This document shows positions 194-16,054 of a DNA stretch of 39,254 nucleotides, in pieces (position 1 is the first letter of the stretch; each line of letters opens with the position of its first letter). The DNA comes from an uncultured bacterium (GTDB lineage: Bacteria; Bacillota; Clostridia; Oscillospirales; Oscillospiraceae). The notes under the pieces are model-generated. The model did not search any database and was not told where the DNA came from. It saw nothing but the letters and a program-made list of their open reading frames with translations. The DNA lies in the NCBI GenBank assembly GCA_947643715.1, contig CANRXB010000023.1, forward strand, positions 1-39,254. Direction: 5' to 3'. Made by a program: the position numbers and the translations under genes.

Positions 194-949
194 ATGAAAG
201 TGATCGGGATCATTCCGGCTCGTTATGACTCCAGTCGACTGCCTGGCAAGCCGCTTGCGGATATCTGCGGGAGGCCCATGATTTGGTGGGTGTATCAACA
301 AGCGAAAAAAGTGCAGCGATTGGAAAAAATTTATGTGGCTGCTGATGATGACCGTGTAAGGGATACCTGTCAAGCATGGGATATCCCTGTCATTATGACA
401 TCGAAAGATAATCCGACTCATTTGAATCGGATCTATGAGGTCGCTCAAACAGTGGATGCAGACCTTTATACTGTTATATGCGGGGATGAACCATTGATCA
501 AAAGCGAAGTCATTGGTGCTGTCATCCCCGACAGTATGCCGGATCAAAAGTATATTGCCCGAGCGTTGATGCGGGAGATCAAGGAGCCTACAGAGGCTAT
601 CGATCCAGGAAATATAAAGATCGCGGCGAACGATAGGGGCGATTGCATCTATCTTTCGCGTAGTCCGATCCCATTCCCATATAAGACGGTCTTGTACAAG
701 TTTTGGAAGATCGTGGGGATCGAGTGCTATAACAAAGCTGCATTGGACTTTTTTGTCCATACTCCGGCAGGTGATTTGGAAAGGATCGAGGATATCGCGA
801 TCCTTCGGTTCATGGAAAACAAGATCGGGATGCATTTTACACGGGTAGTTTCTGATGCACTGTCGGTGGATACACAAAGAGACTTGGAAAAGGTGAGGCT
901 GCTTTTGAAGCAACGACTTGAGACAGAAGGTGGGATTGATAAAAGATGA
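194..949 (+). CDS. KdsB-like sugar-acid cytidylyltransferase
   Basis: The 251-residue product is a nucleotidyltransferase of the CMP-Kdo synthetase (KdsB) family, which joins CMP from CTP to an acidic keto-sugar. The N-terminal nucleotide-binding motif IPARYDSSRLPGKPL spans residues 7-21 and the second signature GDEPLI starts at G97. Length matches the family. The Kdo-enzyme element usually written SGT(D/E)R is replaced here by THLNR (about residues 75-79), so the substrate may be an acidic sugar other than Kdo; that is inference. TGAGGG lies just upstream of the ATG. The stop overlaps the next start (ATGA), so the gene is translationally coupled to the aldolase gene. The N-terminal region is A/T-richer than the housekeeping genes further right. 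Confidence 0.85.
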   Translation: MKVIGIIPARYDSSRLPGKPLADICGRPMIWWVYQQAKKVQRLEKIYVAADDDRVRDTCQAWDIPVIMTSKDNPTHLNRIYEVAQTVDADLYTVICGDEPLIKSEVIGAVIPDSMPDQKYIARALMREIKEPTEAIDPGNIKIAANDRGDCIYLSRSPIPFPYKTVLYKFWKIVGIECYNKAALDFFVHTPAGDLERIEDIAILRFMENKIGMHFTRVVSDALSVDTQRDLEKVRLLLKQRLETEGGIDKR

Positions 950-2541
950 AAAAGATCCATTTGCTTGATTGTACGCTTCGAGATGGCGGTTTCGTCAACC
1001 AATGGAGGTTTGGCGAGGAGTGCATCATCAATATATTCGAAAGGTTGCAGCTCTCCGGCATGGATATCATTGAAGTCGGCTATTTACGCGATCGTGTTTC
1101 CTTCGATTTGGACGAGACCCAGTTTCCAGATACGGCGTCGATTGGAAAACTACTTCCGTCCAAGATCAGTGAAGAGACCAGCGTTGTGGCCATAATAGAC
1201 TATGGAGACTGTTCACTTGACCGTATTTCTCCCTGTGCAGATAGCGTGCTGGATGGGATCCGGGTGACGTTCAAACAGAAAGACATGCTGCAGGCGTTGA
1301 GTTTCTGCAAAGAGATAAAGAAAAAAGGGTATTTTGTTTCACTTCAGCCGGTATCGTTCATGGACTATACACCTCAGGATGTGTTGGACTTGGTGGCTGG
1401 GGCCAATGAATTGATGCCGCTTGCAGTGTGTATCGTAGACACCTATGGCTTTATGAACAAACGCGATTTGTTGCGCTACTATTCCCTGATGGACGCTACA
1501 TTGGAGCCGGAGATCGCACTGGGATATCACTCTCATAATAATTTTCAACTGGCCTACTCCAATGCTGTTGAGTTCATCGAACAGTTCACTCAACGGCGGA
1601 TGATCGTCGACTGTTCTGTCATGGGGATGGGAAAGGGCGCAGGAAACGCGGCAACAGAACTGATGGCGCTCTATATCAACAACTATATGGGCGGGGATTA
1701 CGATGTAAATCAGATCCTTGAGATCGCGGATACCTACATCGAGAAGGAAAAGAAAAAGAACGATTGGGGGTATTCTCTCAAGTATTACATCGCGGCGTCG
1801 AACTATTGCCATCCTAGATACGTGTCCTTTTTGCTGAACAAAAAGACACTCTCGATCAAATCGATCAATGAAGTCATTTCTCGGATAGATCCTGAGAAAA
1901 AGACGAGGTATGACGAGGAACATATCGTTTTTCTTTATCAAGAGTTTCAAAAGAAGTGTGTAGATGACCACGCTTCATATGCTGAGCTGCGCGCTGCGAT
2001 AGGTGATCGTCCTATCTTAGTGCTCGCTCCTGGAAGCAGCCTTTTGAAAGAAAAAGAGAAGATAGAGGGGTATGTTCGTAAAAGTGACCCCTATATCATC
2101 AGTATCAATCATTTTTCAGAGTTATACCGTTCCGATGCAGTTTTCGTCAGTAATCATAAACGATATAGCCAGATCGCGCTGCGGATGAAAAAGCATCCAT
2201 CCGGAGCGCGCGTCATCGCGACTTCGAATATCGATCCTGCGACATTGGAGGTGGACCTTTATTTGAACTACTCCAGCCTATTGGTAGATGATCAGGCTGT
2301 TTCGGACAATGCGACGCTGATGCTAGTCAATGCTATGATCAAAATGGGCTCGAAAGAAGTGACACTGGCCGGGTTCGATGGATATAAGAGCGAGGGCAGT
2401 AATTACTTCAATGATGGATGGGATTTTATGGGGCAGTCTTGGCTGCAAAATGAGGCGATCGAAGCGGCGGTGAAGCGGCTGGAAGAGAAGATCTCCATCC
2501 GCTTTTTGACGGAAAGTTTGTACAGGAAGAGGGCAGAGTGA
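946..2541 (+). CDS. DRE-TIM aldolase fused to an unidentified C-terminal domain
   Basis: The 531-residue protein has two parts. Residues 1 to about 340 are an HMG-CoA-lyase-like TIM barrel of the 4-hydroxy-2-oxovalerate aldolase type: CTLRDGG at 9-15 (R12, D13), the metal-binding HSHNN (H195, H197) and GMGKGAGN at about 227-234. Such enzymes make or break C-C bonds next to 2-oxo acids using a divalent metal. Residues from about 354 begin with LVLAPGSSL and include a later VTLAGFDGY; this resembles DUF115/MptE-like or sialyltransferase-like Rossmann domains, but I cannot assign it. The gene overlaps the cytidylyltransferase gene by 4 bases and abuts the HAD gene. Inference: it makes a 2-keto-3-deoxy sugar acid that is then dephosphorylated and CMP-activated. 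Confidence 0.8.
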   Translation: MKKIHLLDCTLRDGGFVNQWRFGEECIINIFERLQLSGMDIIEVGYLRDRVSFDLDETQFPDTASIGKLLPSKISEETSVVAIIDYGDCSLDRISPCADSVLDGIRVTFKQKDMLQALSFCKEIKKKGYFVSLQPVSFMDYTPQDVLDLVAGANELMPLAVCIVDTYGFMNKRDLLRYYSLMDATLEPEIALGYHSHNNFQLAYSNAVEFIEQFTQRRMIVDCSVMGMGKGAGNAATELMALYINNYMGGDYDVNQILEIADTYIEKEKKKNDWGYSLKYYIAASNYCHPRYVSFLLNKKTLSIKSINEVISRIDPEKKTRYDEEHIVFLYQEFQKKCVDDHASYAELRAAIGDRPILVLAPGSSLLKEKEKIEGYVRKSDPYIISINHFSELYRSDAVFVSNHKRYSQIALRMKKHPSGARVIATSNIDPATLEVDLYLNYSSLLVDDQAVSDNATLMLVNAMIKMGSKEVTLAGFDGYKSEGSNYFNDGWDFMGQSWLQNEAIEAAVKRLEEKISIRFLTESLYRKRAE

Positions 2542-3189
2542 ATGAAGAGGCATCGAGCGGTCTTTTTTGATTTGGATGGGACCTTATTGGATACTTCTGC
2601 TGGAGTGATCCACACGATCGATCACATCATAACGCAGTTCGACTTGCCAATGCTTTCTGAGGAAGAAAAGCGTAGTTTCATAGGTCCGCCGGTGCAGCAG
2701 TCATTCCAGGAGCATTATGGTTGTACCCAGGAACGAGCATGGGAATTGGCGGCGGCTTGGCGGGAAGCATATAAAGAAAAGTTCCTGTTTGAAGCTGTGC
2801 CGTATGACGGTATATATGATCTGCTCGATGTGTTGCGAAGCAAAGGGATCAAAACATGTGTGGCGACCAATAAGCGAGAGGATTATTCGCTGAGACTGTT
2901 GGAACACTTTTATTTCCTGCCCTTGTTCGACTGTGTCGTTGGCTCGGACCTTGAGGGAAAACGCAGGAAATCGGATATGATAAAGCTATGCATGGATCGA
3001 ACTGAAGTGGTCGATCCGGCTCAAGGTTTTATGGTGGGAGATACCGTAGGAGATATGAAGGCGGCACAGGAGGTCGGGACCAATTTTATAGGTGTGACCT
3101 ATGGCTTCGGCTTCAAAAAAACAGATGTGATAGACGGAGTGCTGTTGGTAGACGATGTCCAAGGCATCGGTCGGATATTCGACGAGTGA
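2542..3189 (+). CDS. HAD-superfamily phosphatase, Gph-like
   Basis: The 215-residue hydrolase has the HAD motifs in order: FDLDGTLLD with nucleophile D10 and acid/base D12, a motif II threonine at T109 (VATN), a lysine-rich motif III near residues 140-143, and MVGDTVGD with D167 and D171. The cap domain lies between residues 16 and 85. By sequence it is closest to phosphoglycolate-phosphatase-type HADs. The ATG directly follows the TGA of the aldolase gene. Its place between a C-C-bond enzyme and a cytidylyltransferase parallels KdsC in Kdo synthesis, so a sugar-acid phosphate is the likeliest substrate; that is inference. The next gene starts 18 bases after the stop. Confidence 0.85.
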   Translation: MKRHRAVFFDLDGTLLDTSAGVIHTIDHIITQFDLPMLSEEEKRSFIGPPVQQSFQEHYGCTQERAWELAAAWREAYKEKFLFEAVPYDGIYDLLDVLRSKGIKTCVATNKREDYSLRLLEHFYFLPLFDCVVGSDLEGKRRKSDMIKLCMDRTEVVDPAQGFMVGDTVGDMKAAQEVGTNFIGVTYGFGFKKTDVIDGVLLVDDVQGIGRIFDE

Positions 3190-3207
3190 AGGGGAGAACA
3201 AGGAGCT

Positions 3208-4971
3208 ATGAAGAGGTGCATCGTTTTCTTTTTCTACGATAAAGACGGCATCGTAGATAGGTATATCTTTCACATCTTGCAGGATCTGGTCCAACGAAGT
3301 GAGCGGATCGTCTTTGTCTGCAACGGGAAACTGGATGCCAAGGGCAGGAGAGCTGTGAGCGAATATACGAAAGACATCATGGTCCGGAAAAACGAAGGGA
3401 TGGATGTCTGGGCATATAAAGAGGCGCTGTCGTATCTTGGCTGGCAAGAGATATACCGCTATGATGAGCTCGTTTTGATGAATTTCACTATTTTCCCGAC
3501 GCTGCACTCATTTTGCGAGATGTTCGATGATATGGAGCGGATCGACACAGACTTTTGGGGGACGACTACCTTCTTTGGGAGGAACACCGCAGTCGCGGGG
3601 CAAGTGCCGGACCATATACAATCGCATTTCATTGCAGTCCGTCATCCGATGCTCTCCAGCTATGAGTTCAAGAAATATTGGGAAGAGATGCCGAGCATCC
3701 AGTCGTATGCCGATTCGGTCAGGCTCCATGAAAGCAGGTTCACGCAACGTTTCGAAGGATATGGATTCAGATCGTACGCTTACGCGGGAGCGGAAGAGCT
3801 GCGCCCGCTGACAGGCTGTCCGGCATTTTGGCGGCAGAAGTATCTGCTCCAGAACACGAAGGTGCCTCTCATAAAAAGAAAGACATTTTTTTACCCGCCG
3901 TATGATGGCCTGGTATACGAGACTGCGGGGGAGGCAGCGGTGGCCCCCTATGATTTTTTGAAAAAGAGCGGCGGGTACGATACGGATATGATATGGGAGA
4001 ACATCCTTCGCACGAGTCCCATGACAGACATCAAGAACGCGCTCCAATTGAATCATATCTTTCCCTATGAAGAGCAAGGACAGGACAGGACAGGACAGGA
4101 CAGGACAGGACAGGACAGGACAGGACAGGACACTACGGTCGATCCATTTGTTGGTGTCGTCCTTTTCGTGCGTTCTTGCGAACACATCGAACAATTCGAA
4201 GAGTACTTGAACGCCATACCTCAAGGTGCAGACGTACATATCTTATCGCCGCTGGAAGATGTCGGATCATTCGAGAGGATGTTATCCCAACAGCACAGAG
4301 TCTCGGTACATAAAACAGAACGAGAGACAGTCGCCAGTACAGCTATCATGCGATATCTAGCGCAGATCGAACTGACGTATCGGTATCTGCTGGTCCTCCG
4401 ATTCGATGTCTCAGACCGTGCAGACTATGCAGCGACGTACAAATCCATGGAGTGCCTGTTAAAAAGTCCGCGATTCGTCCGAAACGTCTTGGATAAGTTT
4501 GAAGATGAGCCGCGTTTGGGGCTATTGTTCCCATCGCCTCCCAATAACGATAAATATACATCGTTCATGGGGAGAGAATGGATCGACTTCAAAGACGGGG
4601 TGATCGAGCTCGTCGATGAGCTGGGTGTCGCGTTCGATGCGCAGCAGACGCCCGTCGCGCCGTACTTTGGCATGTATTGGTGCAGAGCGCAGACCATGCG
4701 AGAGATCTTGGGCATGTGTCCGCTTTCGGCCATTCAGAAGTATGAGAACGAGCGGAGAGGCTTTTTCGAGTTTTGGGACATAGTCATCGGACTTCTGGCG
4801 CAAAAGGGGGGATATTATTCTGCATGGTCCTATAATGTGGACTTTGCTGCCATCGAGATCACGAATACGATGTTTTATCTCAATAAATTGATACGTTCTT
4901 CGAATGCTGCTCCGAAAGAAGGTATCTGGCAGATCGCGCGCAGGCTGGGGCCAAATGCTGCGCAGAAATAG
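3208..4971 (+). CDS. RgpF-family two-domain glycosyltransferase with an in-frame CAGGA repeat
   Basis: The 587-residue protein belongs to the rhamnan-synthesis RgpF family, which builds rhamnose-containing wall polysaccharides at the cytoplasmic face. The N-terminal domain (about 1-290) has YDKDGIVDRY at 10-19, a VCNG turn, RKNEGMDVWAY (N62, G64, D66) and YDELVLMN. Residues 292-308 are repeats of Gln-Asp-Arg-Thr-Gly encoded by ten CAGGA units, exactly at the junction with the second domain (about 310-587). The second domain keeps the PSPP and FGMYW regions shared with its two paralogues but lacks their EN-G-R-D-SALL motif, so its activity may differ. AGGGGAG upstream fits the start. A change in repeat number not divisible by three would truncate the product at about 335 or 366 residues, leaving only the first domain. 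Confidence 0.85.
   Translation: MKRCIVFFFYDKDGIVDRYIFHILQDLVQRSERIVFVCNGKLDAKGRRAVSEYTKDIMVRKNEGMDVWAYKEALSYLGWQEIYRYDELVLMNFTIFPTLHSFCEMFDDMERIDTDFWGTTTFFGRNTAVAGQVPDHIQSHFIAVRHPMLSSYEFKKYWEEMPSIQSYADSVRLHESRFTQRFEGYGFRSYAYAGAEELRPLTGCPAFWRQKYLLQNTKVPLIKRKTFFYPPYDGLVYETAGEAAVAPYDFLKKSGGYDTDMIWENILRTSPMTDIKNALQLNHIFPYEEQGQDRTGQDRTGQDRTGQDTTVDPFVGVVLFVRSCEHIEQFEEYLNAIPQGADVHILSPLEDVGSFERMLSQQHRVSVHKTERETVASTAIMRYLAQIELTYRYLLVLRFDVSDRADYAATYKSMECLLKSPRFVRNVLDKFEDEPRLGLLFPSPPNNDKYTSFMGREWIDFKDGVIELVDELGVAFDAQQTPVAPYFGMYWCRAQTMREILGMCPLSAIQKYENERRGFFEFWDIVIGLLAQKGGYYSAWSYNVDFAAIEITNTMFYLNKLIRSSNAAPKEGIWQIARRLGPNAAQK
4081..4130 (+). repeat. Pentanucleotide microsatellite (CAGGA)x10 inside a coding region
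   Basis: Ten perfect, uninterrupted copies of CAGGA, preceded by the near-match CAAGGA. Five is not a multiple of three, so each unit gained or lost shifts the frame. At 10 copies the gene is open. Worked by hand, 11 copies leads to TGA at 4208-4210 and 9 copies to TAA at 4311-4313 (numbering of this sequence). The repeat itself has no stop in any + frame. Confidence 0.97.
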
Positions 4972-5010
4972 AGTGACGGCCTCAAATCCATAAAAGGTTA
5001 GGTAAGAAGG

Positions 5011-7119
5011 ATGAAGAGAGCGGGAATATATTTCTTTTTCGATAAGGATGGGATCGTTGACCGGTATGTGCCTTATTTCATCACAGGACTGCATGAAGTC
5101 GTCGATTATATCGTCGTAGTCGTGAATGGGAGGTTGACGGCAGAGGGCAGGAAAACGCTGGCGGAAGCTGCGGACGATCTGATCGTGCGGGAAAATCGGG
5201 GCTTCGATGCCTGGGCATATAAAGAGGCCATAGAGTATATCGGCTGGGATGAACTGCGTGAGTTTGACGAACTTGTCATAGCGAATTCTACCATATATGG
5301 TCCGCTCTATCCCTTCCAAGAAGCGTTCGATAGGATGGATGCGGATCCCTGCGATCTCTGGGGCATGTATTTGGCATATGGGGACAAGAAGAAAAAGGAT
5401 TGGTTCGGGATCCCGCTGCCCAATGGTCTGCAAGACCATATCGCGAGCAACTTTGTGGTATTCAAGCAAAGCATACTGCATAGTTACGAATTCTATCATT
5501 TTTGCAACGATATCCCTGAAATCAAAGACTATTTTGAAAGTGGTGCCTATTTTGAGTTTCCCTTGACGGGGGAGTTTAGCGATGCCGGTTTCACATGGGC
5601 TACCTTAGATGAAGGAGCATTTCGGCATGTGTGCCCAAATCCGATGGTCTATGGTGCACTGCAAGCGGTCTCAGAGTACAGGGTCCCGATCCTTCGTAAG
5701 AAAGCGTTCTTTGATGCCAACGGATCCATAGACTTTTGTACAGACATCCCGCGGGAACTGATGCGATATATCGAGGAACACACAGAGTATGACTGTGGCC
5801 TGATTTGGGAAAACCTCTTGCGGACAGTGAACCAATATGATTTGAAAAATTGGTTCAATTTGAATCAGATCCTGCCGCTCGATCACTCCAAACCGGTGCA
5901 GCGGGGGACCAAAATAGCGGCGATCTTTCATAGCTCTCATGAAGATAGGATGGGCCGATATCTACATAATATCAAGTCGTTTCCTGATGGAACGGATCTC
6001 TATTTCACCACAGATACCCAAGACAAGTTGGAGGTATTGAAAGAGCTGCTTTTACCATTGAACGCTCGGTTCAATATCGAATACCGGTTAGTGGAAAACG
6101 GAGGGCGGGACGTATCGGCGCTTTTGATCGGCTGCAAGGATGTGGTGCTTGACGGCGGGCATGACCTTGTCTGCTTCATGCATGACGTAGATGAAGCCGG
6201 AGATGATGACAGATTCTCTTGTGTCAGCCGTGCTTTTTCCGACTGCTGCTTTGAAAATGTGGCAGCAAGTGCGGATTATGTGAACAATGTCGTGGAATTG
6301 TTTCGGAAGCAGGAAAAGCTGGGGCTTGCGGTCCCACCTCCCCCCAAGAATGCGGATTGCTACAGGGCGATCGGAGGTTCATGGGGGAACTCGGAGAACT
6401 TCTCCAGCGTACAGAAGATGCTGGCAGGATTGGAGTTGAAAGTGCCCCTGGACCCCAAAAGACCTCCAGTAAGCGCTTATGGGTCTATGCTTTGGTTTCG
6501 GCCGAAGGCGCTTGCTCCTTTGTTCCAGAGAGAATGGTGTGTGGAAGATCTCGATAAAGGCGCTATGTATGGAGACGGTAAGATACCTGGTACTATCGCG
6601 TGTTGCTATGGGTTCGTCGCACAAAGCCAAGGCTATTATACCTCCTATATCATGAACCGTATATATGCGGAGCAAGAGGTCACGAGGATGACCGACATCG
6701 CGCATACCTATGTAGAGTTGACACTCCAACATGTGGGCGCGAAAGCAATGCTGAAGATCGCTACAGCGGATTTTTTGCGTATGCTGCAACAAAAGAAAGC
6801 AGCCGGCACACCTCCACCGGCCAAAAAGCCGGTATCTCCCGCCAAAAGATCGGCGTCTCCAGTAAAGCAGCCGCTCCCTCCGGCAGTCCGAAAGCCCAGG
6901 GGACGTGGGAAGAGCTTTTTGCGGGGGATCTGTCCCATCGGGCTATGGAACCTGCTGCGCCGGGTCCGGTGCGCTGCGGCAGGCGGGCGGTATGTGGAGC
7001 CTTCCGTGGAGCGTGGCCCCATCAAAACCGTGGTGCGTGCTTGTATGCCTCGTTTTTTGTGGGACATGCTCCGCAAAGCGAAGTGCAAAGAAAACGGCTG
7101 GATATATGTAGAGGACTGA
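5011..7119 (+). CDS. RgpF-family two-domain glycosyltransferase with repeat-bearing C-terminal tail
   Basis: This 702-residue RgpF paralogue has DKDGIVDRY at 11-19, VVNG, RENRGFDAWAY (N62, G64, D66) and FDELVIAN in the first domain. The second domain has ENGGRDVSALL (N363, R366, D367), a VPPPP segment and SMLWFR. It therefore looks like a complete tandem pair of transferase domains. After about residue 595 comes a Pro/Lys/Ala/Ser-rich linker and then two related segments of about 16 residues (near 640-655 and 677-692) of the form C-P/M-x-x-LW-x-x-LR-x-x-x-C. The tail is absent from the other two paralogues; its role is unknown, perhaps membrane or partner docking. AAGAAGG abuts the ATG and AGGTTAGG lies further upstream. 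The next gene starts 4 bases after the stop. Confidence 0.85.
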   Translation: MKRAGIYFFFDKDGIVDRYVPYFITGLHEVVDYIVVVVNGRLTAEGRKTLAEAADDLIVRENRGFDAWAYKEAIEYIGWDELREFDELVIANSTIYGPLYPFQEAFDRMDADPCDLWGMYLAYGDKKKKDWFGIPLPNGLQDHIASNFVVFKQSILHSYEFYHFCNDIPEIKDYFESGAYFEFPLTGEFSDAGFTWATLDEGAFRHVCPNPMVYGALQAVSEYRVPILRKKAFFDANGSIDFCTDIPRELMRYIEEHTEYDCGLIWENLLRTVNQYDLKNWFNLNQILPLDHSKPVQRGTKIAAIFHSSHEDRMGRYLHNIKSFPDGTDLYFTTDTQDKLEVLKELLLPLNARFNIEYRLVENGGRDVSALLIGCKDVVLDGGHDLVCFMHDVDEAGDDDRFSCVSRAFSDCCFENVAASADYVNNVVELFRKQEKLGLAVPPPPKNADCYRAIGGSWGNSENFSSVQKMLAGLELKVPLDPKRPPVSAYGSMLWFRPKALAPLFQREWCVEDLDKGAMYGDGKIPGTIACCYGFVAQSQGYYTSYIMNRIYAEQEVTRMTDIAHTYVELTLQHVGAKAMLKIATADFLRMLQQKKAAGTPPPAKKPVSPAKRSASPVKQPLPPAVRKPRGRGKSFLRGICPIGLWNLLRRVRCAAAGGRYVEPSVERGPIKTVVRACMPRFLWDMLRKAKCKENGWIYVED

Positions 7120-7123
7120 GGAC

Positions 7124-8395
7124 ATGTTCATACCATTTGTTTTTAATATGTCTACCTTCAACGAGGCGCCTTATCTTTGGTGGTTCTACAAGGGACTGGA
7201 CTTTGTGAAAAGAACGAACTCCGCGATCGTTGCGCAAGAGATATATTGCGATACGCCCGTGTCTTATTTCGTTTCGGCGGGTCGTTCGGAAGCGATCAAT
7301 AAGCAACGTTGGGGATACTCCATGCCCAAGAATCAGGACCTTCGAACGGATCGGATATACAAGATACCGGATGCCCTGCTCGAGCCTTTGATCCGGGAGA
7401 AGGGTTCTGTTTCAGACGCGTTTTGCTATTTGTTGAAGCAGCCGGATGCAGATCTGTGTGCGTTCCTGGATAAGCTGATCGTGAGGATCGAATCGGAGCG
7501 CAGAGAAAAGATAGAGGGCTTCATCACTTTGATGGCTCTTCCAAGTCTTACGAAGGTCGCCCATGACAGGGGGATCCCGGTGATCCACTTTGAGTTGGGG
7601 TGCTTGCGAGACCCGACCTATCTCAAGACAGCTTTTTGGGATCTGCAGGATCTCCAGGGGGGAGATTCGGTGGAGCGGCGCTGGGAACGCTTCCAGAGGG
7701 AGCATGAGCAGCGGCCGATCCCGATGTTCAGCAAGAGAGAATGCTTGGCGCTGCTGCTGGAAAAAGAGAAGCTGCCGTTGCTGGATGGGTATGACCGGAG
7801 GCCAGTGAAGCAGATCGGCGTGGCGTTGGGCTATACGACGTATGAGATATTCTCCTACAAAACGCATCTCAACGATTCGGAGCTGCTGTATCGAGTCAGG
7901 CAGAAATACGGCATGGATCAGATGCTGATCCGCAGACATCCTGGAGATCCGTATGGGGGACAGTACCCACGGTATGCATCTGCTATGGACAAGCCGAAAA
8001 GGAGTATGCCGGATTTCATTTTGGATTGTGAGACGGTGATCTCTCTGCTGTCCGGCACAGGGATAGAGGCCATGCTCTGGGGGCGAAAAGCCATCACCCT
8101 GCTGCCGAGCCCTTCCTACTTTGCGTCTGGTCACGAGATAGAGGGGGAAGGAAAGTGCGCGGATGAGGGATTCATCAGCTTTTTCGCGTTTTGCTATCTG
8201 ATCCCGTTGGAATTTTTGACTGATTTGGACTATCTGCGCTGGAGACTCACCATGCCGACGGAACGGGAAATCTATTTCAAGCATTTGGATCTCTACTTCA
8301 AGAGGAAAGCGATCCCCACAGACCTGATCTTTGGAACGCCGGGGAGCCGGCTGGATAGGATGCTGTCAGCGCAGGGGGTCCGGCTGAAAGGATAA
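7124..8395 (+). CDS. KpsC/KpsS-like capsule glycosyltransferase (putative)
   Basis: The 423-residue protein has no signal peptide or clear membrane segment. Several elements recall capsule enzymes of the KpsC/KpsS type, GT-B-fold transferases that use CMP-Kdo: an HFELGCLRDPTY segment (about 155-166), RRHPGDP around H272-P273, and SGTGIEAMLWGRK (about 310-322), followed by a loop with SPSYF. The first 150 residues are not recognised. If the assignment is right, it would be the natural user of a CMP-activated acidic sugar made by the first three genes. It sits between RgpF and RmlD genes in the same operon. Another GT-B family, or a non-transferase capsule protein, remains possible. Confidence 0.5.
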   Translation: MFIPFVFNMSTFNEAPYLWWFYKGLDFVKRTNSAIVAQEIYCDTPVSYFVSAGRSEAINKQRWGYSMPKNQDLRTDRIYKIPDALLEPLIREKGSVSDAFCYLLKQPDADLCAFLDKLIVRIESERREKIEGFITLMALPSLTKVAHDRGIPVIHFELGCLRDPTYLKTAFWDLQDLQGGDSVERRWERFQREHEQRPIPMFSKRECLALLLEKEKLPLLDGYDRRPVKQIGVALGYTTYEIFSYKTHLNDSELLYRVRQKYGMDQMLIRRHPGDPYGGQYPRYASAMDKPKRSMPDFILDCETVISLLSGTGIEAMLWGRKAITLLPSPSYFASGHEIEGEGKCADEGFISFFAFCYLIPLEFLTDLDYLRWRLTMPTEREIYFKHLDLYFKRKAIPTDLIFGTPGSRLDRMLSAQGVRLKG

Positions 8396-8403
8396 AGCGC
8401 GTT

Positions 8404-9291
8404 ATGAGGCTGCTCATTACAGGAAGCGAAGGACAGCTTGGATCAGAGTTGAAGCGGCAGCTCCGCGCAGGCGGCTGTGTTTTGGGAGAGCTGCCGAGGG
8501 AGTTGGCCGGGGCCAAATCGTTTTGTACGCAGTTCGATGAGCTCGACATATGCGACGAGGCGGCTGTCGATTCGTATGTGCGGGAGATGTGCCCGGACGT
8601 GGTATTGCATTGCGCTGCCATGACCGACGTGGACGGCTGCGAGGAGGATCCGGCGCAGGCGGAACGCGTCAATGGGACAGCGGTGAGGTACATCGCGCAG
8701 GCATGCCAAGGTGTGGGGGCAAAGCTGGTGTATGTTTCCACCGATTACGTTTTTTCCGGCGACAAACACAGCGCCTATATGACGGACGATGCTTGCGTGC
8801 CGCAGACGGCCTATGGGCGCAGCAAGCGGTCGGGGGAGGAGAACGCGCTGGCGTATTGCTCCCGCACGTTCATCGTTCGGACCGCATGGCTCTACGGCTT
8901 CCATGGAAAGAACTTCGTGAAAACGATCTTGCGAAAAGCGGCCGGATCGGACCTGATACGGGTCGTATCCGACCAGTATGGGAACCCCACCAACGTCGAG
9001 GACCTGGCATACCACATGCTGCTGCTGGCCGCTACCGAGCGGTACGGCATATACCATTGCACCGGAGGCGGGGTGTGCAATTGGTATGAGTTCGCGAGGG
9101 AGATCGTGAGGCTGTCTGGCCACGGCTGCCGGGTGGAGCCGTGCGCTTCGGCAGAATATCCGCAAAAGGCGAAAAGGCCGGCCTACTCCGCGCTGGACCA
9201 TAGCGCCCTGGAAGCTGCGGTGGGCGATAAGATGCGTCCCTGGCAAGAGGCGCTGAGAGATCATATCGATAGATTGGAGGAGATGGAATGA
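8404..9291 (+). CDS. rfbD: dTDP-4-dehydrorhamnose reductase
   Basis: The 295-residue reductase makes dTDP-L-rhamnose from the 4-keto intermediate with NAD(P)H. It has the N-terminal dinucleotide motif TGSEGQLG (6-13), HCAAMTDVDGCE, VSTDYVFSG, the catalytic YGRSK (Tyr and Lys) and the family C-terminal RPAYSALD. Length and order match RmlD/RfbD. No rmlA, rmlB or rmlC homologue lies in the window, so the earlier steps must be encoded elsewhere. Its presence among three RgpF genes supports a rhamnose-containing polymer. The stop overlaps the next start (ATGA). Confidence 0.9.
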   Translation: MRLLITGSEGQLGSELKRQLRAGGCVLGELPRELAGAKSFCTQFDELDICDEAAVDSYVREMCPDVVLHCAAMTDVDGCEEDPAQAERVNGTAVRYIAQACQGVGAKLVYVSTDYVFSGDKHSAYMTDDACVPQTAYGRSKRSGEENALAYCSRTFIVRTAWLYGFHGKNFVKTILRKAAGSDLIRVVSDQYGNPTNVEDLAYHMLLLAATERYGIYHCTGGGVCNWYEFAREIVRLSGHGCRVEPCASAEYPQKAKRPAYSALDHSALEAAVGDKMRPWQEALRDHIDRLEEME

Positions 9292-10130
9292 GCCGAGTCT
9301 TGGTGACAGGCGCCTGTGGATACATCGGCCGGCATGTGGTCAAGAGCCTGTTGGAGCGTGGGCACCATGTGATCGCAGCCGATGTCCGGGACGATGGCTG
9401 CGACTTTCGGGCCGAGATGTGCCTGTGCGATATCTTCAGCGGGGATCCGGAGCTCTATCAAAAGCTTGGCAGTCCGGAAAAGTTGGTCCACCTGGCGTGG
9501 CTGGACGGGTTCGTACATAACAGCCCCCGCCATATAGAATATCTCCCGCTGCATTATCAGTTCCTCGATCGGATGCTGTCTGGCGGTGTGGAGCAGATCG
9601 CCGTCATGGGGACGATGCATGAGATCGGATATCATGAGGGCGCGATCGATGAGGATACGCCGGCAGCCCCTCTGTCCCTCTATGGCATCGCAAAGAACAG
9701 CCTCAGACAAGCCTGCGGCGTTCTGCAGGACCGATACCCCGATGCAGTGTTCCAGTGGCTCCGGGCCTATTATATCTGTGGCGACGATGCGTTCAATCAC
9801 TCGATCTTCGCAAAGATCGCGGCGGCAGAGCGCGAGGGAAAAAAGACTTTCCCGCTGAACTCAGGAAAGAACCGATACGATTTCATCACAGTGGAGGAAT
9901 TAGCATGGCAGATCGCGGCGGCCGTATCACAAAAGGAGGTCTGCGGCGTCATCGACTGCTGTACCGGCCAGGCCACGTCTCTCAGGGAGAAGGTGGAGCG
10001 TTTCATCCAGGAGCGCGGCTTTTCGATCCGGCCGGAATATGGAGCGTTCCCGGACCGGCCGTATGATTCTCCTGGGGTGTGGGGGGATCCGGCAAAGATA
10101 CAGGAGATCGTGAAACGGATGTCGCCATGA
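9288..10130 (+). CDS. NAD-dependent epimerase/dehydratase (extended SDR)
   Basis: The 280-residue protein is an extended short-chain dehydrogenase acting on nucleotide sugars. It has TGACGYIGRHVV (7-18) for NAD(P) binding, LVHLAW in place of the common HLA(A) turn, and YGIAK as the Tyr-x-x-x-Lys catalytic pair. It is somewhat shorter than typical GalE/RmlB enzymes, which suits a 4-ketoreductase or epimerase of a deoxy-sugar. The exact reaction cannot be read from sequence. It overlaps rfbD by 4 bases, and GGAGGAGATGG before the ATG supports the start. Confidence 0.8.
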   Translation: MSRVLVTGACGYIGRHVVKSLLERGHHVIAADVRDDGCDFRAEMCLCDIFSGDPELYQKLGSPEKLVHLAWLDGFVHNSPRHIEYLPLHYQFLDRMLSGGVEQIAVMGTMHEIGYHEGAIDEDTPAAPLSLYGIAKNSLRQACGVLQDRYPDAVFQWLRAYYICGDDAFNHSIFAKIAAAEREGKKTFPLNSGKNRYDFITVEELAWQIAAAVSQKEVCGVIDCCTGQATSLREKVERFIQERGFSIRPEYGAFPDRPYDSPGVWGDPAKIQEIVKRMSP

Positions 10131-10145
10131 TGGGAGAACGGGACC

Positions 10146-12059
10146 ATGAAGATCGATGATGGAAAGGCCAGGCGCCTGGGGATATATTTCTTCTACGATG
10201 CCCAAGGGATTGTGGACGGATACGTATATCATTTTTTGGATGGCATCCGTCCCTGCCTGTGTGAGTTGTATATCGTGTGCAACGGGTCCGTGGAGGAGGC
10301 TGCCCTGGAACGATTCGAACGGTACGCAGCCGGCAACGTTTTGGTGAGGGAGAACCGTGGGCTGGATGTAGGCGCTTATAGGGCTGCGATAGAGCGCGTC
10401 GGGTTCGACCGGCTGGGAGACTATGACGAGCTCGTGCTGATGAACGCCACCGTATTCGGGCCCTTGACCCCGTTCACGGAGATGTTCGCGTCGATGTCGG
10501 TGCGGGACCTGGATTTCTGGGGCATCACGTCCCATGCCGGGGTAGAGGGAAATCCGTTCCCACAAAACGGACTGAAGGATCTTCCGGAGCACATCCAATC
10601 CCATTTCCTCGTACTGCGAAAAGAGCTCTTGCGTTCGCCGTCTTACAGGGAATATTGGGATTCATTGCCTGAGATAAGGACCTATGAGGACTCTGTGAGC
10701 CACTATGAATGCACCTTTACCCGGCATTTCGCTGCCCTTGGATTCCAGTGGGCGACCTACACCGGCACAGAGCATTTGGCGCACGTCAGCGCACAGCCGA
10801 TCATGACCATGCCGGCGGTCCTGGTGAGGGATCGCCGGTGCCCGATCGTGAAGCGTCGGTGCTTCTTCCAAGATCGCAGCGTTCTGTTGAACGATACGAA
10901 CGGAGACCAGGGCCGGGAGGTGTTCGAATATATCCGAGATCATCTGGAGTATGACGTCGAACTCATTTGGGAGAACCTCCTGCGCACCTGCAACCATGCG
11001 GCGCTCCGCCGGTGCTTGCAGTTGGACCATGTCTTGCCCGATCGTCTCGTCCAGGGAGGGACGAGACCGGCGCTTCGGGTGGCGCTCTGGATGCACATCT
11101 ACTACATCGACCTGCTTCCGGAATGCTTCCGCTATGCCGGTGCGATGCCGGAGTACGCCGATGTGATCGTGACGACGGATGCACCGGAAAAAAAGAGGCA
11201 GATCGTGTCCATGTTTTCCGGACTTTCCGTGCGCAAAGTCGAGGTCATCATGATCGAGAACCGGGGGAGAGACAACAGCGCTCTGCTGGTAGGGTGCGCG
11301 CCGTTTTTGGACGAGTACGATGTGGTGTGTTTTGCCCACGATAAAAAGGTCGGTCATCTTCGTTATGAGGTACAGGGGCGGTCTTTTGCAGAGCACTGCT
11401 ATCGGAACACATTACAAAGCAAAGGATTCGTGGAGAATGTGGTGCGGGCCTTTGCCGAAGAGCCTAGACTGGGGCTCCTGTGCCCGCCTCCGCCATATGC
11501 GTCGGCATATTACAACACGATCGGGATCGGTGATTGGGGGCCGAACTTCGACAATACCAAAGAGCTGTATGACCGCCTGGGCCTGCGGGTGCCGATCGAC
11601 AGGGGAGAGGAGCCGGTGGCTCCCTTTGGATCGGTCTTTTGGTTCCGCACCCGTGCGTTGGCCGGGCTTTTCCAGTATGGGTGGAGATACGAGGACTTCC
11701 CGGAGGAACCGGTGGATTTCGACGGGACGTTCCTCCACGCCGTGGAGCGCATCTATCCCTTCGTGGCGCAGCAGGCGGGCTATTACAGCGGGTGGCTGCT
11801 GTCCAGCAGCTTCGCGTCTGTGGAGCTGACCAACTACCATTACATGCTGCGCCAGCTCAACATCCGCCTCATCCCGATCTGCGGATCCGGAGATTTCAAT
11901 GAGCTTTGCAGAAAGGTGGAGCGGCTGTCTCCCGGTCCGCTTCGTGCCTGCTATCTCGCGTTGAAACGCTGGCTCGAAGCACATTTGCCTGAAAAAGCGT
12001 TCCAGACGCTGAAAAAACTCAAAAAATGGGTCTTTCGTCATATCGGTATCGGACCATAG
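10146..12059 (+). CDS. RgpF-family two-domain glycosyltransferase
   Basis: This third RgpF paralogue is 637 residues. The first domain shows FFYDAQGIVDGY, VCNG, RENRGLDVGAY (near 68-78) and YDELVLMN; the second shows MIENRGRDNSALLVG (N372, R375, D376), CPPPP and SVFWFR. It lacks both the tandem repeat of the first paralogue and the proline-rich tail of the second, so it is the plainest form and a useful reference for domain limits. It is visibly more GC-rich than the other two. The C-terminus is lysine-rich (LKKLKKW), perhaps contacting the membrane. The ABC permease gene follows after 28 bases. Confidence 0.88.
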   Translation: MKIDDGKARRLGIYFFYDAQGIVDGYVYHFLDGIRPCLCELYIVCNGSVEEAALERFERYAAGNVLVRENRGLDVGAYRAAIERVGFDRLGDYDELVLMNATVFGPLTPFTEMFASMSVRDLDFWGITSHAGVEGNPFPQNGLKDLPEHIQSHFLVLRKELLRSPSYREYWDSLPEIRTYEDSVSHYECTFTRHFAALGFQWATYTGTEHLAHVSAQPIMTMPAVLVRDRRCPIVKRRCFFQDRSVLLNDTNGDQGREVFEYIRDHLEYDVELIWENLLRTCNHAALRRCLQLDHVLPDRLVQGGTRPALRVALWMHIYYIDLLPECFRYAGAMPEYADVIVTTDAPEKKRQIVSMFSGLSVRKVEVIMIENRGRDNSALLVGCAPFLDEYDVVCFAHDKKVGHLRYEVQGRSFAEHCYRNTLQSKGFVENVVRAFAEEPRLGLLCPPPPYASAYYNTIGIGDWGPNFDNTKELYDRLGLRVPIDRGEEPVAPFGSVFWFRTRALAGLFQYGWRYEDFPEEPVDFDGTFLHAVERIYPFVAQQAGYYSGWLLSSSFASVELTNYHYMLRQLNIRLIPICGSGDFNELCRKVERLSPGPLRACYLALKRWLEAHLPEKAFQTLKKLKKWVFRHIGIGP

Positions 12060-12087
12060 ACGCTGAGGCGGCCGGAAAAGGGAGGCT

Positions 12088-12858
12088 ATGATGTTCAAGA
12101 GACTCAAAAAGTACCAGTTCTTGTTCGAAGAACTGGTCAAGCGAGATTTCAAAAAGAAATACAAACGAACGGTCCTCGGCATGGCGTGGAGCGTCCTGGC
12201 GCCGCTGCTCCAGCTCCTGGTCATGCGCCTGGTGTTCACCCAGTTTTTTGGACGGACCTCGCCTCACTATACCATCTATCTGTTCTGTGGCACGCTGGTG
12301 TTCTCCTATTTCAGCGACGCCACGAACCAGGGCATGTCCTCCCTCATGAGCAACGCCGGGATCTTCACCAAGGTGAACGTCCCCAAGTATCTGTTCTTGT
12401 TCTCTAAGAACGTCCAGGCGCTGATCAATTTTGGGCTGACCATGATCGTGTTCGTGGTGTTCTGTGTCTTGGACGACATCACGTTCACATGGAGGATCGT
12501 CTTGCTGGTGTACCCGATCTGCTGCCTGGTCCTGTTCAATGTGGGGGTGGGCCTGATCCTCTCCGCGCTGTTCGTGTTCTTTCGGGACATCCAATACCTT
12601 TGGGGCGTGTTCACCCAACTCTTGATGTACATGTCTGCCATCTTCTACACCATCGACAGCTATAGCCCGCCCATGCAGGACCTGTTCCTCCTCAATCCCG
12701 TCTACCTGTTCATCCGATATTTCCGGACGATCGTCATCGATATGGAGGTCCCTCCGGGCTGGTTCCACCTGCTGATGCTGGCGGACTCGGCGGTCGTGCT
12801 GGGGATCGGCTGCTGGATGTACAAAAAATACAACACCCGCTTCCTGTACTATGTGTGA
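12088..12858 (+). CDS. ABC-2 type polysaccharide export permease (Wzm/TagG-like)
   Basis: The 256-residue membrane protein has an N-terminal amphipathic part with the DFKKKYKRTVLGMAW motif typical of Wzm/TagG/RfbA permeases, then about six hydrophobic segments and the family's conserved LNPVYLFIRYFR before the last two. It would carry lipid-linked polysaccharide across the cytoplasmic membrane. Such permeases need an ATPase partner (Wzt/TagH); none is encoded in this window, so it is either upstream of base 1 or elsewhere. GGGAGG precedes the ATG. The MBOAT gene follows after 30 bases. Confidence 0.9.
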   Translation: MMFKRLKKYQFLFEELVKRDFKKKYKRTVLGMAWSVLAPLLQLLVMRLVFTQFFGRTSPHYTIYLFCGTLVFSYFSDATNQGMSSLMSNAGIFTKVNVPKYLFLFSKNVQALINFGLTMIVFVVFCVLDDITFTWRIVLLVYPICCLVLFNVGVGLILSALFVFFRDIQYLWGVFTQLLMYMSAIFYTIDSYSPPMQDLFLLNPVYLFIRYFRTIVIDMEVPPGWFHLLMLADSAVVLGIGCWMYKKYNTRFLYYV

Positions 12859-12888
12859 CGGCGCACGCTCGACAGAAGGAGAATCATC

Positions 12889-14352
12889 ATGGTATTTTCA
12901 TCCCCGATATTCCTGTTCGCGTTCCTGCCTGCGGTCCTGGCCGGATATTACCTACTGGACCGGCGGTTCAAAAACGGTTTCCTGTTGATCGTTTCGCTGC
13001 TGTTCTATGCCTGGGGCGAGCCGAGGTTCGTCCTGGTCATGATGGTGTCCATCCTGGTCAACCACGCCTTCGCCCTGGCGATCGACCGCGACCTGAAAAG
13101 GGTGCAGGATCTGGCCGGGCGTTCCACGGGAGACCGGTATCGAAAAAGAGCGAAGACGCTCCTTGCCCTGGCGGTGCTCTTCGATCTGGCGCTGTTCTTC
13201 GTGTACAAGTATCTGGACTTCACGATCGCCAATCTCAACGCGGTGGGGGCTCTGTTCGGCGCGCCGGAGATACCGCTGAGACACATCGCGCTCCCGATTG
13301 GCATCTCCTTCTTCACGTTCCAGGCCATGAGCTACGTGTTCGACGTCTATTTGCGAAAGGGACGGGTGCAAAAAGACCCTCTGGACACCGCGCTCTACAT
13401 CGCGCTGTTCCCGCAGCTGATTGCGGGGCCGATCGTCCGGTACGAAACGGTGGCCGAGGAGATCAACCGCCGCCAGGAGACGCTGGAGGATGTGGCGAAA
13501 GGGATCAGGCGGTTCATCGTGGGCCTGGCGAAAAAGGTGATATTGTCCAACAGCGTCGCCGTCATCGCCGATCAGGCGTTCGGCTGGGCCGATCCGTCCG
13601 GGCTCTCCGTGCTCATGGCGTGGCTGGGCGCGGTGGCATATACGTTGCAGATCTATTTCGACTTCTCCGGATATTCCGACATGGCGATCGGCCTGGGCCT
13701 GATGTTCGGCTTCCATTTCGATGAGAACTTCGACTATCCCTACATCTCGAAGTCGGTCTCGGAGTTTTGGCGGCGTTGGCACATCTCACTGAGCTCGTGG
13801 TTCCGAGATTACGTCTATATCCCCTTGGGCGGTTCCCGGGTGGAGGGCCGGGCCCGGCATATCCGGAACCTGTTCGTCGTTTGGTTCCTCACCGGCTTCT
13901 GGCACGGCGCGGCGTGGAACTTCGTGGCCTGGGGCATGTTCTACTTCGTACTGATCGTCTTTGAGAAGCTCACAGGGATGCCCCAGCGGCTGGAGCGTCC
14001 AGCAGGGCGGTACGTCTATCAGGCGGCGGTGTTGGCAGCGGTCACGATCGGCTGGGTGCTCTTCCGGGCGGACGGGGCGCGGGACGCGCTGCGGTACGTC
14101 GGCTGCATGTTCGGCCTGCTGGGGAACCCTGGCGTGGACCCGGCGGCGGTGTTCCTGTGCAAGCAGAGCGCGGTGCTCTTGGCGGTGGCCATGCTGTTCA
14201 GTACGCCTGTGGTCCCGAAGCTGACGGAGATCGTCGGCCGGAAGGCCACTACCCTCGGGGGGGGGGGTAATCACAAAAGAAGCGGTGTCGATCGTGCTGC
14301 ATCTGGCGTTGTTCCTCGTTGGGGTGTCCTTTGCTGTGACCAGCGATTATGA
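12889..14352 (+). CDS. MBOAT-family O-acyltransferase (AlgI-like), frameshifted at a poly-G tract
   Basis: This membrane-bound O-acyltransferase of the AlgI/DltB class moves acyl groups across the membrane onto polysaccharide. It has many hydrophobic segments, FWRRWHISLSSWFRDYVYIP with H298, and the catalytic-type FWHGAAWN with H339. AAGGAG 9 bases before the ATG supports the start. As read here it is 487 residues, but after residue 460 (the Gly run from G11 at 14257-14267) the last 27 residues are unlike the family. In another frame the DNA continues with a hydrophobic helix ending in DPFIYFNF and TGA at 14375-14377, the normal MBOAT ending. Ten or 13 G would restore it (495 residues for ten), while 9 or 12 G would stop immediately. 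The sequence therefore shows an altered state, or a homopolymer error. Confidence 0.9.
   Translation: MVFSSPIFLFAFLPAVLAGYYLLDRRFKNGFLLIVSLLFYAWGEPRFVLVMMVSILVNHAFALAIDRDLKRVQDLAGRSTGDRYRKRAKTLLALAVLFDLALFFVYKYLDFTIANLNAVGALFGAPEIPLRHIALPIGISFFTFQAMSYVFDVYLRKGRVQKDPLDTALYIALFPQLIAGPIVRYETVAEEINRRQETLEDVAKGIRRFIVGLAKKVILSNSVAVIADQAFGWADPSGLSVLMAWLGAVAYTLQIYFDFSGYSDMAIGLGLMFGFHFDENFDYPYISKSVSEFWRRWHISLSSWFRDYVYIPLGGSRVEGRARHIRNLFVVWFLTGFWHGAAWNFVAWGMFYFVLIVFEKLTGMPQRLERPAGRYVYQAAVLAAVTIGWVLFRADGARDALRYVGCMFGLLGNPGVDPAAVFLCKQSAVLLAVAMLFSTPVVPKLTEIVGRKATTLGGGGNHKRSGVDRAASGVVPRWGVLCCDQRL
14257..14267 (+). repeat. Homopolymer G11 in the MBOAT gene
   Basis: Eleven consecutive G in frame position 1 at codon 457. 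Three outcomes follow from length: 10 or 13 G gives the family C-terminus ending at the TGA now at 14375-14377; 11 G (seen here) gives a 27-residue unrelated tail ending at 14352; 9 or 12 G puts TAA directly after the tract. Confidence 0.97.
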
Positions 14353-14416
14353 CCCGTTCATTTATTTCAACTTCTGAGCAGGATGACGGCAGGGATCAAA
14401 ATGGAGGCGAAAGTGC

Positions 14417-16054
14417 ATGGAAAATGAACTCGATCGGTCCAATAGAGATAAGAGACCAGTTCAAACGAGAGATGCCGCTAAAAAAATAGGGGATGTATTT
14501 TTGGTGGCGGTTTTTTGCACGATATCACTGTCTTTTCTGCTCTTGAATTATTCCAGCTTGAGAAAGTCTATCCTGGAACAAGGGAAGGGGACCGGCACGT
14601 TACAGCAGAGGCTGATGCTGGCGGAAGCACAGTTCCGGGAGTCGATACGATATCGAAGATCGTTCATAGACCTATACGGCGTGGCATTGAACATCTTGGA
14701 CTTGAAGGTCGTAGGGGATCTTGATTTTGTCAAGGATGAGCGCGGTGTGATGCAAAGGCCGACGACAGGGGTGGATGAAGCTCTTTTTTCTCATGACATG
14801 TACGAACTGGAAAGGGTCACGGCGGCAGCCGGCACTCCATTGGTCTATGTGTCCCTGCCAGACAAGACGAGATATTTCGGGTTGGCGAAAAGCGATGCGT
14901 TCCTGTTCGACGGACAAGTGAGCAGCCGGATGGGGACATTGCTGGAAGATGAGATCGACTGTCTCGATATAGGTGCGCTGATCGACAGCGGGGGAGACGC
15001 GCCGTCCTTCGATGAGTTCTTTTTCAAGACGGATGTCCACTGTTCGACCTATGGTGAATTTTGGATGGCGAAAATGTTGGCAGAGCACCTGACCAGCCGA
15101 AATGGGATCGTGTTCCCTGATGGTGAAAGGGTATTCGACCTGGCGAATCATGATATAGCTCGCTATGAGTTCGTCGGTAATACAGCCAGGTCTGCCGGAA
15201 AATATTTTGCTGGAACAGATCTTTTTGAGATCTATAAACCAAAGTTCGAGACCGATTTGAAGCTGGTGAACCCGTCGGCTTCAGAGCAGATAGCGGGGAA
15301 CTTTGAAAAAGTGATGCTGAATGGGTATGAAAGCAGAGAAGATATCGATGAATATACCTACTGGGTCACGGATTATGGCCGCTTCACATCGCCATACTAC
15401 AAGTATGTCAATGAAAGTGCGCCTGGAAGCGCTCCACGTATATTGGTGGTCGGCGATTCGATCTTCATGCGGGGCGTTGCCTATTTGACATTGGCCTGCA
15501 AAGAAGTCACCGTCATGGACCCGCGCTATTTCGATGGGGTGGAATATTTGGCGGGCGAGTTGGCGTCTGAACATTATGACGCTGTGGTCGTGATCGCCAC
15601 GTCGGTCAATTTTTATCGGTCGCGATTCGCATCGTCAACGGAACTCCCCGACCTTCCTGAGTGGCCCGCGCAGACCTCGGACGGATGGATCGGGACCAAC
15701 GGCATGTTCCTGGACACGTACAATAGCGAGAGGATCCAGAATGCCGACCCGATTCCCATCGATCGGGAAGCCATGCGGTTCCGGCTGGTGGGCTGGGCGG
15801 CGGATTTCGACGGCCAGCGGCCGTTGAGCGCGTTGTATCTACAGGTGGGGGACATGATCGTCCGATGCAACTATGGGATCGAGCGGACCAGCGTGTCCGA
15901 CCATTTCCAGAACGACGATCTGAAGGACACCGGGTTCGATGTGGAGTTCCCCGCGTCTTATCTGCAAGGGGTGGACGAGCTGCGTTTCATCCAGATCGGG
16001 ACGGACGGAAGTTATCGGTATGAGCCGGTCGTCTACCGGCTCCCCCAGGGATGA
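14417..16054 (+). CDS. AlgX/AlgJ-like SGNH O-acetylation partner
   Basis: The 545-residue protein has one N-terminal membrane segment (about residues 25-47) and a large outward-facing part. FFFKTDVHCSTYGEFWMA recalls the D-x-H block of the AlgJ/AlgX/DltD group, and ILVVGDSIFMRG is an SGNH-type GDS block carrying the likely nucleophile serine. The last 120 residues look like a beta-sandwich sugar-binding module. In known systems such proteins take the acyl group moved by the adjacent MBOAT protein and attach it to the glycan outside the cell. GGAGG at 14403-14407 fixes the start. From about 15,650 the DNA becomes clearly more GC-rich than the earlier part of the gene, suggesting mosaic origin. 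Confidence 0.75.
   Translation: MENELDRSNRDKRPVQTRDAAKKIGDVFLVAVFCTISLSFLLLNYSSLRKSILEQGKGTGTLQQRLMLAEAQFRESIRYRRSFIDLYGVALNILDLKVVGDLDFVKDERGVMQRPTTGVDEALFSHDMYELERVTAAAGTPLVYVSLPDKTRYFGLAKSDAFLFDGQVSSRMGTLLEDEIDCLDIGALIDSGGDAPSFDEFFFKTDVHCSTYGEFWMAKMLAEHLTSRNGIVFPDGERVFDLANHDIARYEFVGNTARSAGKYFAGTDLFEIYKPKFETDLKLVNPSASEQIAGNFEKVMLNGYESREDIDEYTYWVTDYGRFTSPYYKYVNESAPGSAPRILVVGDSIFMRGVAYLTLACKEVTVMDPRYFDGVEYLAGELASEHYDAVVVIATSVNFYRSRFASSTELPDLPEWPAQTSDGWIGTNGMFLDTYNSERIQNADPIPIDREAMRFRLVGWAADFDGQRPLSALYLQVGDMIVRCNYGIERTSVSDHFQNDDLKDTGFDVEFPASYLQGVDELRFIQIGTDGSYRYEPVVYRLPQG

Follow-up and report, generated by a model that had tools for sequence, protein, structure and literature searches.

The window analysed here is a stretch of 39,254 nucleotides from an uncultured bacterium of the Oscillospiraceae, and it opens with a polysaccharide-type gene cluster (Table 1). 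The cluster contains a cytidylyltransferase, HMGL-like and HAD proteins, three RgpF proteins, a GT99-like protein, RmlD-like and epimerase-like open reading frames (ORFs), an ABC-2 permease and an MBOAT protein. Its first six genes have a GC content of 0.46–0.53, compared with 0.615 for positions 17250–39254; this difference in composition suggests acquisition by transfer. As for the host, the genome encodes Spo0A (E 1.4e-46) and gave no match to LpxC, a combination that fits a monoderm member of the Bacillota. Between positions 194 and 8395, a CTP_transf_3 cytidylyltransferase is accompanied by a protein with a GT99 N-terminal domain, a family that we take to be Kdo transferases. In a genome with no LpxC match, this raises the question of a Kdo-like sugar in a non-LPS polysaccharide.

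One of the three RgpF genes encodes a putative two-domain glycosyltransferase of 587 residues. Its family, proposed in the original prediction from the sequence alone, is supported by a Pfam match of 307.6 bits against a cut-off of 25, covering profile positions 1–466 of 503. The ten exact CAGGA units noticed there at 4081–4130 turned out to be the core of a longer perfect run of AGGAC units, 56 bp in full (11.2 copies, 100% match, TRF score 112). The 11 other arrays that TRF finds in the window score 37 at most. When the window was shuffled 200 times with its dinucleotide counts preserved, the longest run of period 5 averaged 12.7 bp and reached 18 bp at most; outside the tract, the window itself holds period-5 runs of 11–12 bp at most. 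With its 11.2 units the tract thus exceeds both chance expectation and the cut-off of five units published for pentanucleotide repeats with PhasomeIt (PMC6321876).

The repeated unit encodes the peptide GQDRT, which is identical in all three frames and contains no stop in any of them; for this reason, a tract of any length is translatable. The unit length is not a multiple of three and the tract lies in the coding frame, with premature stops in two of the three phases downstream. A slippage-prone, non-triplet repeat inside a coding region, as originally described, is therefore what the locus holds.

Table 1. Features of the window and candidate slippage tracts elsewhere in the same genome. Plain coordinates refer to the window; runs are given by base and length.
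Feature	Position	Strand	Tract, frame or profile	Basis
Polysaccharide-type cluster	194..16054	+		ORFs, Pfam, GC; RmlD and epimerase names from ORF reading
RgpF-family two-domain putative glycosyltransferase, 587 aa	3208..4971	+	open in assembly	ORF; PF05045, E 2e-91
First RgpF domain	3208..4068	+	profile 1-255; kept at all lengths tried (4-17 units)	Pfam; frame table
Perfect AGGAC tract	4077..4132	+	(AGGAC)11+1	TRF, shuffles, sequence
Second RgpF domain	4138..4971	+	profile 274-466; lost on frame shift	Pfam; frame table
MBOAT O-acyltransferase gene	12889..14377	+	frames split around G11	Pfam; paralogue; frames
G homopolymer, second candidate slippage tract in the cluster	14257..14267	+	G11	SSR scan; sequence
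RgpF	contig C7		G9
Two adjacent Acyl_transf_3 genes	contig C13 (L280:1607-3806)		G13; 15 as C on coding strand; both out of frame
Acyl_transf_3	contig C38		G15, upstream of domain, inside frame
Glyphos_transf	contig C47		G11 at residue 500, just after the best of two matched stretches (119-493)
Acyl_transf_3	contig C56		G10, after domain
Histidine-kinase frame	contig C19		G9, C on coding strand
Run with no gene assigned	contig C8		14

The consequences of a change in length were tabulated by script, with the number of full AGGAC units varied from 4 to 17. The full-length protein is obtained at 5, 8, 11, 14 and 17 units, a pattern with a period of three units, while at all other lengths the product stops at 325–340 or 356–376 residues. 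As predicted, one unit more than the 11 full units of the assembly shortens the protein of 587 residues to 335, and one unit fewer (10 units) shortens it to 366. After the repeat, these OFF products would carry about 25 (12 units) or 59 (10 units) foreign residues. The placement of the tract was also described correctly: it sits at the junction of the two RgpF domains, the first of which precedes it and stays intact when the frame shifts, while the second follows it and is removed. The single copy of the gene that we have seen, in one genome, is open.

We considered whether the second domain could be translated independently after a frameshift. This appears unlikely: judged by eye, the in-frame starts 3′ of the tract have poor upstream sites.

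In an alignment of six RgpF proteins from the genome, the four other two-domain paralogues (two in the window and two in contig C7) lack approximately 15 residues at the tract, and the sixth protein ends before the tract position. An AlphaFold model of the window protein, computed from a three-row alignment, reached a mean pLDDT of 54, and only its secondary-structure outline was used. At this low confidence, it depicts two alpha/beta regions, spanning roughly residues 3–200 and 315–540, and a coil from 279 to 314. A search by sequence for solved structures gave no match to the window RgpF at E values up to 1. At the end of an RgpF gene in C7 (L176:12560–13100), we also observed in-frame repeats of about 42 bp that encode a coiled-coil-like EKDELDQIRRIYLD motif.

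The CAGGA unit is shared with a second gene. Three sites in the whole genome carry (CAGGA)4: the tract of the window, the initial 85 bases of contig C50 and the final 55 bases of contig C73. The end of C73 carries 11 units within an ORF that matches Acyl_transf_3 at profile positions 2–197 (71.7 bits). The start of C50 carries 17 units and an ORF matching positions 218–324 of the same profile at 26.5 bits (E 4.1e-06), which falls short of the cut-off of 31. The natural reading is that the two pieces derive from a single acyltransferase gene that the assembly split within a tract of at least 17 units; given the frames on the two contigs, the gene would be open at 11, 14, 17 or 20 units. Neighbouring ORFs on both contigs look like those of a polysaccharide locus, going by names assigned on reading them. 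We rejected the difference between 11 and 17 units as a sign of length variation, these being most likely the two ends of one broken tract.

We then consider the homopolymers. G or C runs of at least nine bases occur at 47 places in the genome. Of these, 31 are no further than about 200 bp from a contig end; they were set aside, along with those in GC-rich patches of contigs C1 (two) and C2 (five), and nine isolated interior runs remain. The contig ends (L179:1–110, L218–L224 and others) carry clustered G and C homopolymers, as long as G31, that are probably assembly debris, and the interior patches of C1 and C2 resemble them. The raw tally was rejected as evidence, since 31 of the 47 runs are near contig ends and chance alone gives more.

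Seven of the nine isolated runs, 9–15 bases long, fall in glycan-type genes. Three of these seven genes are out of frame (the window MBOAT and both genes of C13) and four are open. In the window MBOAT, the upstream frame extends over 12889–14352, and a C-terminal end resembling that of a paralogue (...YDPFIYFNF, with the stop at 14375–14377) is found in another frame immediately after the G11; this paralogue, in C7, is 56% identical. In the two C13 acyltransferases the Pfam matches stop at profile positions 260 and 252 of 326, and a hydrophobic continuation lies in another frame; the shifted frame of one of them, taken alone, gave no Pfam match.

How far these runs depart from chance was assessed on 468 kb of the same genome, with the C2 debris excluded. 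This sample holds three G/C runs of at least eight bases, against 76.5 expected from dinucleotide shuffles: they are about 25 times rarer, hence strongly avoided. Scaled to the genome, the shuffles predict about 137 runs of at least 9 bases, 12 of at least 11, 1.1 of at least 13 and none of at least 15, whereas the isolated interior runs number 9, 6, 4 and 2, respectively. Judged on length, only the four longest stand out, and runs of up to 11 bases are not beyond chance. An earlier shuffle control with loose thresholds had given 25 repeats in the shuffle and 11 in the sample. Since the runs do not go beyond chance in number or, up to 11 bases, in length, it is their concentration in a single functional class, together with the altered frames, that makes the case for the G/C tracts. 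The run lengths come from a draft assembly and could be miscalled.

The flanks of the in-gene G runs (L206, L215, L217, L225 and L276) show some regularities. CTC often precedes them, as in the window, C38, C56 and one C13 gene, and TAA stands directly 3′ of the run in the window, C38, C47 and C56, providing a stop in one frame. A shared origin of these flanks is possible.

Among relatives, the pentamer appears confined to this genome: (CAGGA)4 is absent from 41 of the 42 genomes of the genus and (CAGGA)5 from 399 of the 400 genomes of the family, the sole carrier being our genome in both cases. In the 41 other genomes of the genus we found neither an orthologue of the window RgpF gene nor the companion acyltransferase of C73 and C50. 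Distant RgpF homologues, with 28–39% identity, are present in four of 300 family genomes searched, all of them without (CAGGA)5. Runs of at least 10 G are more widespread and occur in 24 of the 42 genomes of the genus, our own included. Ten reading frames were scanned out of the 30 such loci in the genus: none gave a match to glycan families and two were DNA-methylation genes. We thus claim a concentration of G/C tracts in glycan-type genes for this genome only.

More broadly, a scan of genome contigs for (CAGGA)5 returned at least 115 stretches. The 80 loci listed hold 82 tracts, of which 37 have nine or more units. For 17 of the 37, a single reading frame was scanned; ten of these frames had Pfam matches and seven had none. 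Gene classes well known from phase-variable systems account for seven of the 17, namely two restriction enzymes, a pair of GT2 proteins (one on the other strand), a TonB receptor, a hexapeptide transferase and a weak PMT match below its cut-off. Other matches at the listed loci included MerR, radical SAM and PAS/histidine kinase.

Length differences can be followed in Komagataeibacter and Gluconacetobacter, where five orthologues among the matches listed carry 6.2, 14.2, 16.2, 21.4 and 26.2 CAGGA units. They are 86–100% identical after the tract, and the one scanned is a Type ISP restriction-modification enzyme; in these enzymes (L053, L056, L081, L105 and L115) the tract lies near the start of the C-terminal specificity domain region. 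Frames upstream and downstream of the tract agree in two of the five and disagree in three, and some of these orthologues show a few base differences next to the tract as well. The comparison started from seven loci of acetic acid bacteria, two of which (L052 and L117) were unrelated and left out of the count. The clearest pair is K. oboediens and K. europaeus: the printed flanks are the same and the 286 residues after the tract are identical, the tracts are two units apart and the frame differs. CAGGA tracts consequently do change by steps other than three.

Other bacteria carry the unit in different arrangements. Nc350_bin205, a metagenome-assembled genome of the Streptococcaceae, has at least eight CAGGA loci (8 among the 80 listed). 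In three of the eight listed, a near-identical leader and the start codon come immediately before the tract, and two of those three have different identified genes downstream. Its tracts fall into two leader families with the start codon just upstream (L045, L070 and L092; L080, L093, L094, L101 and L114), and the whole looks like a cassette-based phasome. In Bordetella pseudohinzii (L051 and L100), a contig end and a contig start both fall in CAGGA tracts of 11 units; B. hinzii (L098) has a tract of 17 units. Viral contigs hold 16 stretches with (CAGGA)5 or more (L258–L273).

We now propose that the RgpF gene is very likely subject to phase variation by slipped-strand mispairing, and that it is probably one locus of a multi-gene set. 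On this proposal, built on sequence features, AGGAC units would mispair during replication and be gained or lost. Since a unit of five bases does not preserve the triplet frame, every one-unit step would take the downstream half of the gene out of frame or bring it back. Cells with 8, 11, 14 and so on full units would make the full two-domain RgpF enzyme; those with other counts would make only the first domain, extended by the repeat-encoded peptide and a short tail of foreign residues. Switching would then turn on and off a single step in the synthesis or modification of an exported surface polysaccharide. We infer both the slippage in this strain and the sugar chemistry, and the benefit would probably be avoidance of phages or of host immunity.

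The tract is probably one of about nine in glycan-type genes of this genome that are prone to slippage: two genes with CAGGA and seven with G/C tracts, three of the latter being out of frame, with lengths from a draft assembly and runs of up to 11 within chance. Individual cells may therefore show different combinations of coat modifications.

A special case of phase variation in RgpF deserves tentative consideration, though we find it rather doubtful: the OFF product would itself be a working one-domain transferase, with two polymer structures alternating instead of a coat that is present or absent. In its favour, the first domain remains intact, one RgpF of C7 is apparently split at the same domain boundary into two adjacent genes, the first of which covers profile positions 1–255, and the G11 of the Glyphos_transf gene in C47 follows closely on a matched stretch. 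The second half-gene of C7 is less helpful, however: its RgpF match (positions 295–471, E 0.0076) is weak and below the Pfam cut-off, and although it resembles the C-terminal half of a third C7 RgpF (BLASTP E 6e-10), it has no significant similarity to the C-terminal domain of the window RgpF. The foreign residues carried by the OFF products speak against a working enzyme too, and linkers are also simply the safest position for a tract.

An extended form of the same idea is more speculative still and appears to us improbable as a whole. It takes the tract for a structure selector instead of an on/off switch, choosing, through a frame shift located precisely between two catalytic domains, between a bifunctional polymer-building enzyme and a working single-domain one within a nine-gene, two-motif coat phasome of a monoderm host from a spore-forming lineage. 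If it were true, one clone would display many different polysaccharides.

More unlikely than either is a neutral repeat in a tolerant linker. Here the array would have expanded by chance, extra GQDRT copies would be harmless and frame-shifted cells would be lost, such that the tract mutates with no adaptive role. The tract does sit in a variable inter-domain linker and gives the same peptide in all three frames, the pentamer is present in only one of 400 family genomes, and the number of companion G/C runs does not go beyond chance; these points speak for a neutral repeat. It accounts poorly, on the other hand, for the presence of CAGGA in a second, unrelated glycan-type gene, for the concentration of G/C tracts in the same functional class with a mixture of open and shifted states, and for the recurrence of CAGGA at restriction, glycosyltransferase and receptor genes elsewhere.

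Finally, an assembly or sequencing artefact is extremely improbable. In its favour, the draft comprises 93 contigs, many contig ends carry G/C debris, and a contig break interrupts the companion repeat. Against it, the 56-bp tract is perfect and in frame, lies inside a contig between dissimilar flanks and is exceeded in length by common reads, and a broken companion would be expected of a real tract too long for the assembler.

Phase variation of RgpF by slippage is thus the reading that we compare with known systems. In Neisseria, the opa genes carry CTCTT pentamers near the gene start. The tetramers of Haemophilus are described as simple-sequence contingency loci (PMC2651432). As in these two systems, the present tract is a perfect, short, non-triplet repeat within an ORF, whose copy number sets the frame; one unit is likewise common to more than one locus per genome, and the targets are surface glycan genes. 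Unlike them, it is made of CAGGA, it stands mid-gene at a domain junction, and its host is positive for Spo0A and negative for LpxC.

Another pentanucleotide repeat, CACAG, is cited for the type III restriction system of Pasteurella haemolytica, with a possible role in gene modulation (Ryan and Lo 1999, via PMC6321876); our tract resembles it in period and in such a possible role, and differs in unit, gene class and phylum. The poly-G/C phasomes of Campylobacter comprise many in-ORF G tracts, with no repeat units longer than two bases reported for the Campylobacter genomes of that survey (PMC6321876). Our genome is similar in having in-ORF G/C tracts, in seven genes, and differs from that description in combining G/C tracts and pentamers.

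In the literature collection searched there was no paper that joins CAGGA with phase variation and repeats, and none that joins RgpF, rhamnose and phase variation. Phrases of the type 'CAGGA repeat' retrieved no bacterial paper, the sole match being on human repeats. Among the literature matches listed, in their titles and abstract openings, no simple-sequence phasome was reported for Clostridia. The kind of system is known, then, and what is new is the CAGGA unit, its placement at a domain junction and the host lineage.

That CAGGA recurs across distant phyla, at genes for restriction, glycosyltransferase and receptor proteins, suggests that this unit is worth including in surveys of phase variation. 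For the bacterium itself, our results suggest that several surface features could flicker at random. In Clostridioides difficile, pdcB and pdcC are described as switching by invertible promoters; it is with these that the up to nine slippage-prone, coat-type genes of this Spo0A-positive, LpxC-negative bacterium may be compared.
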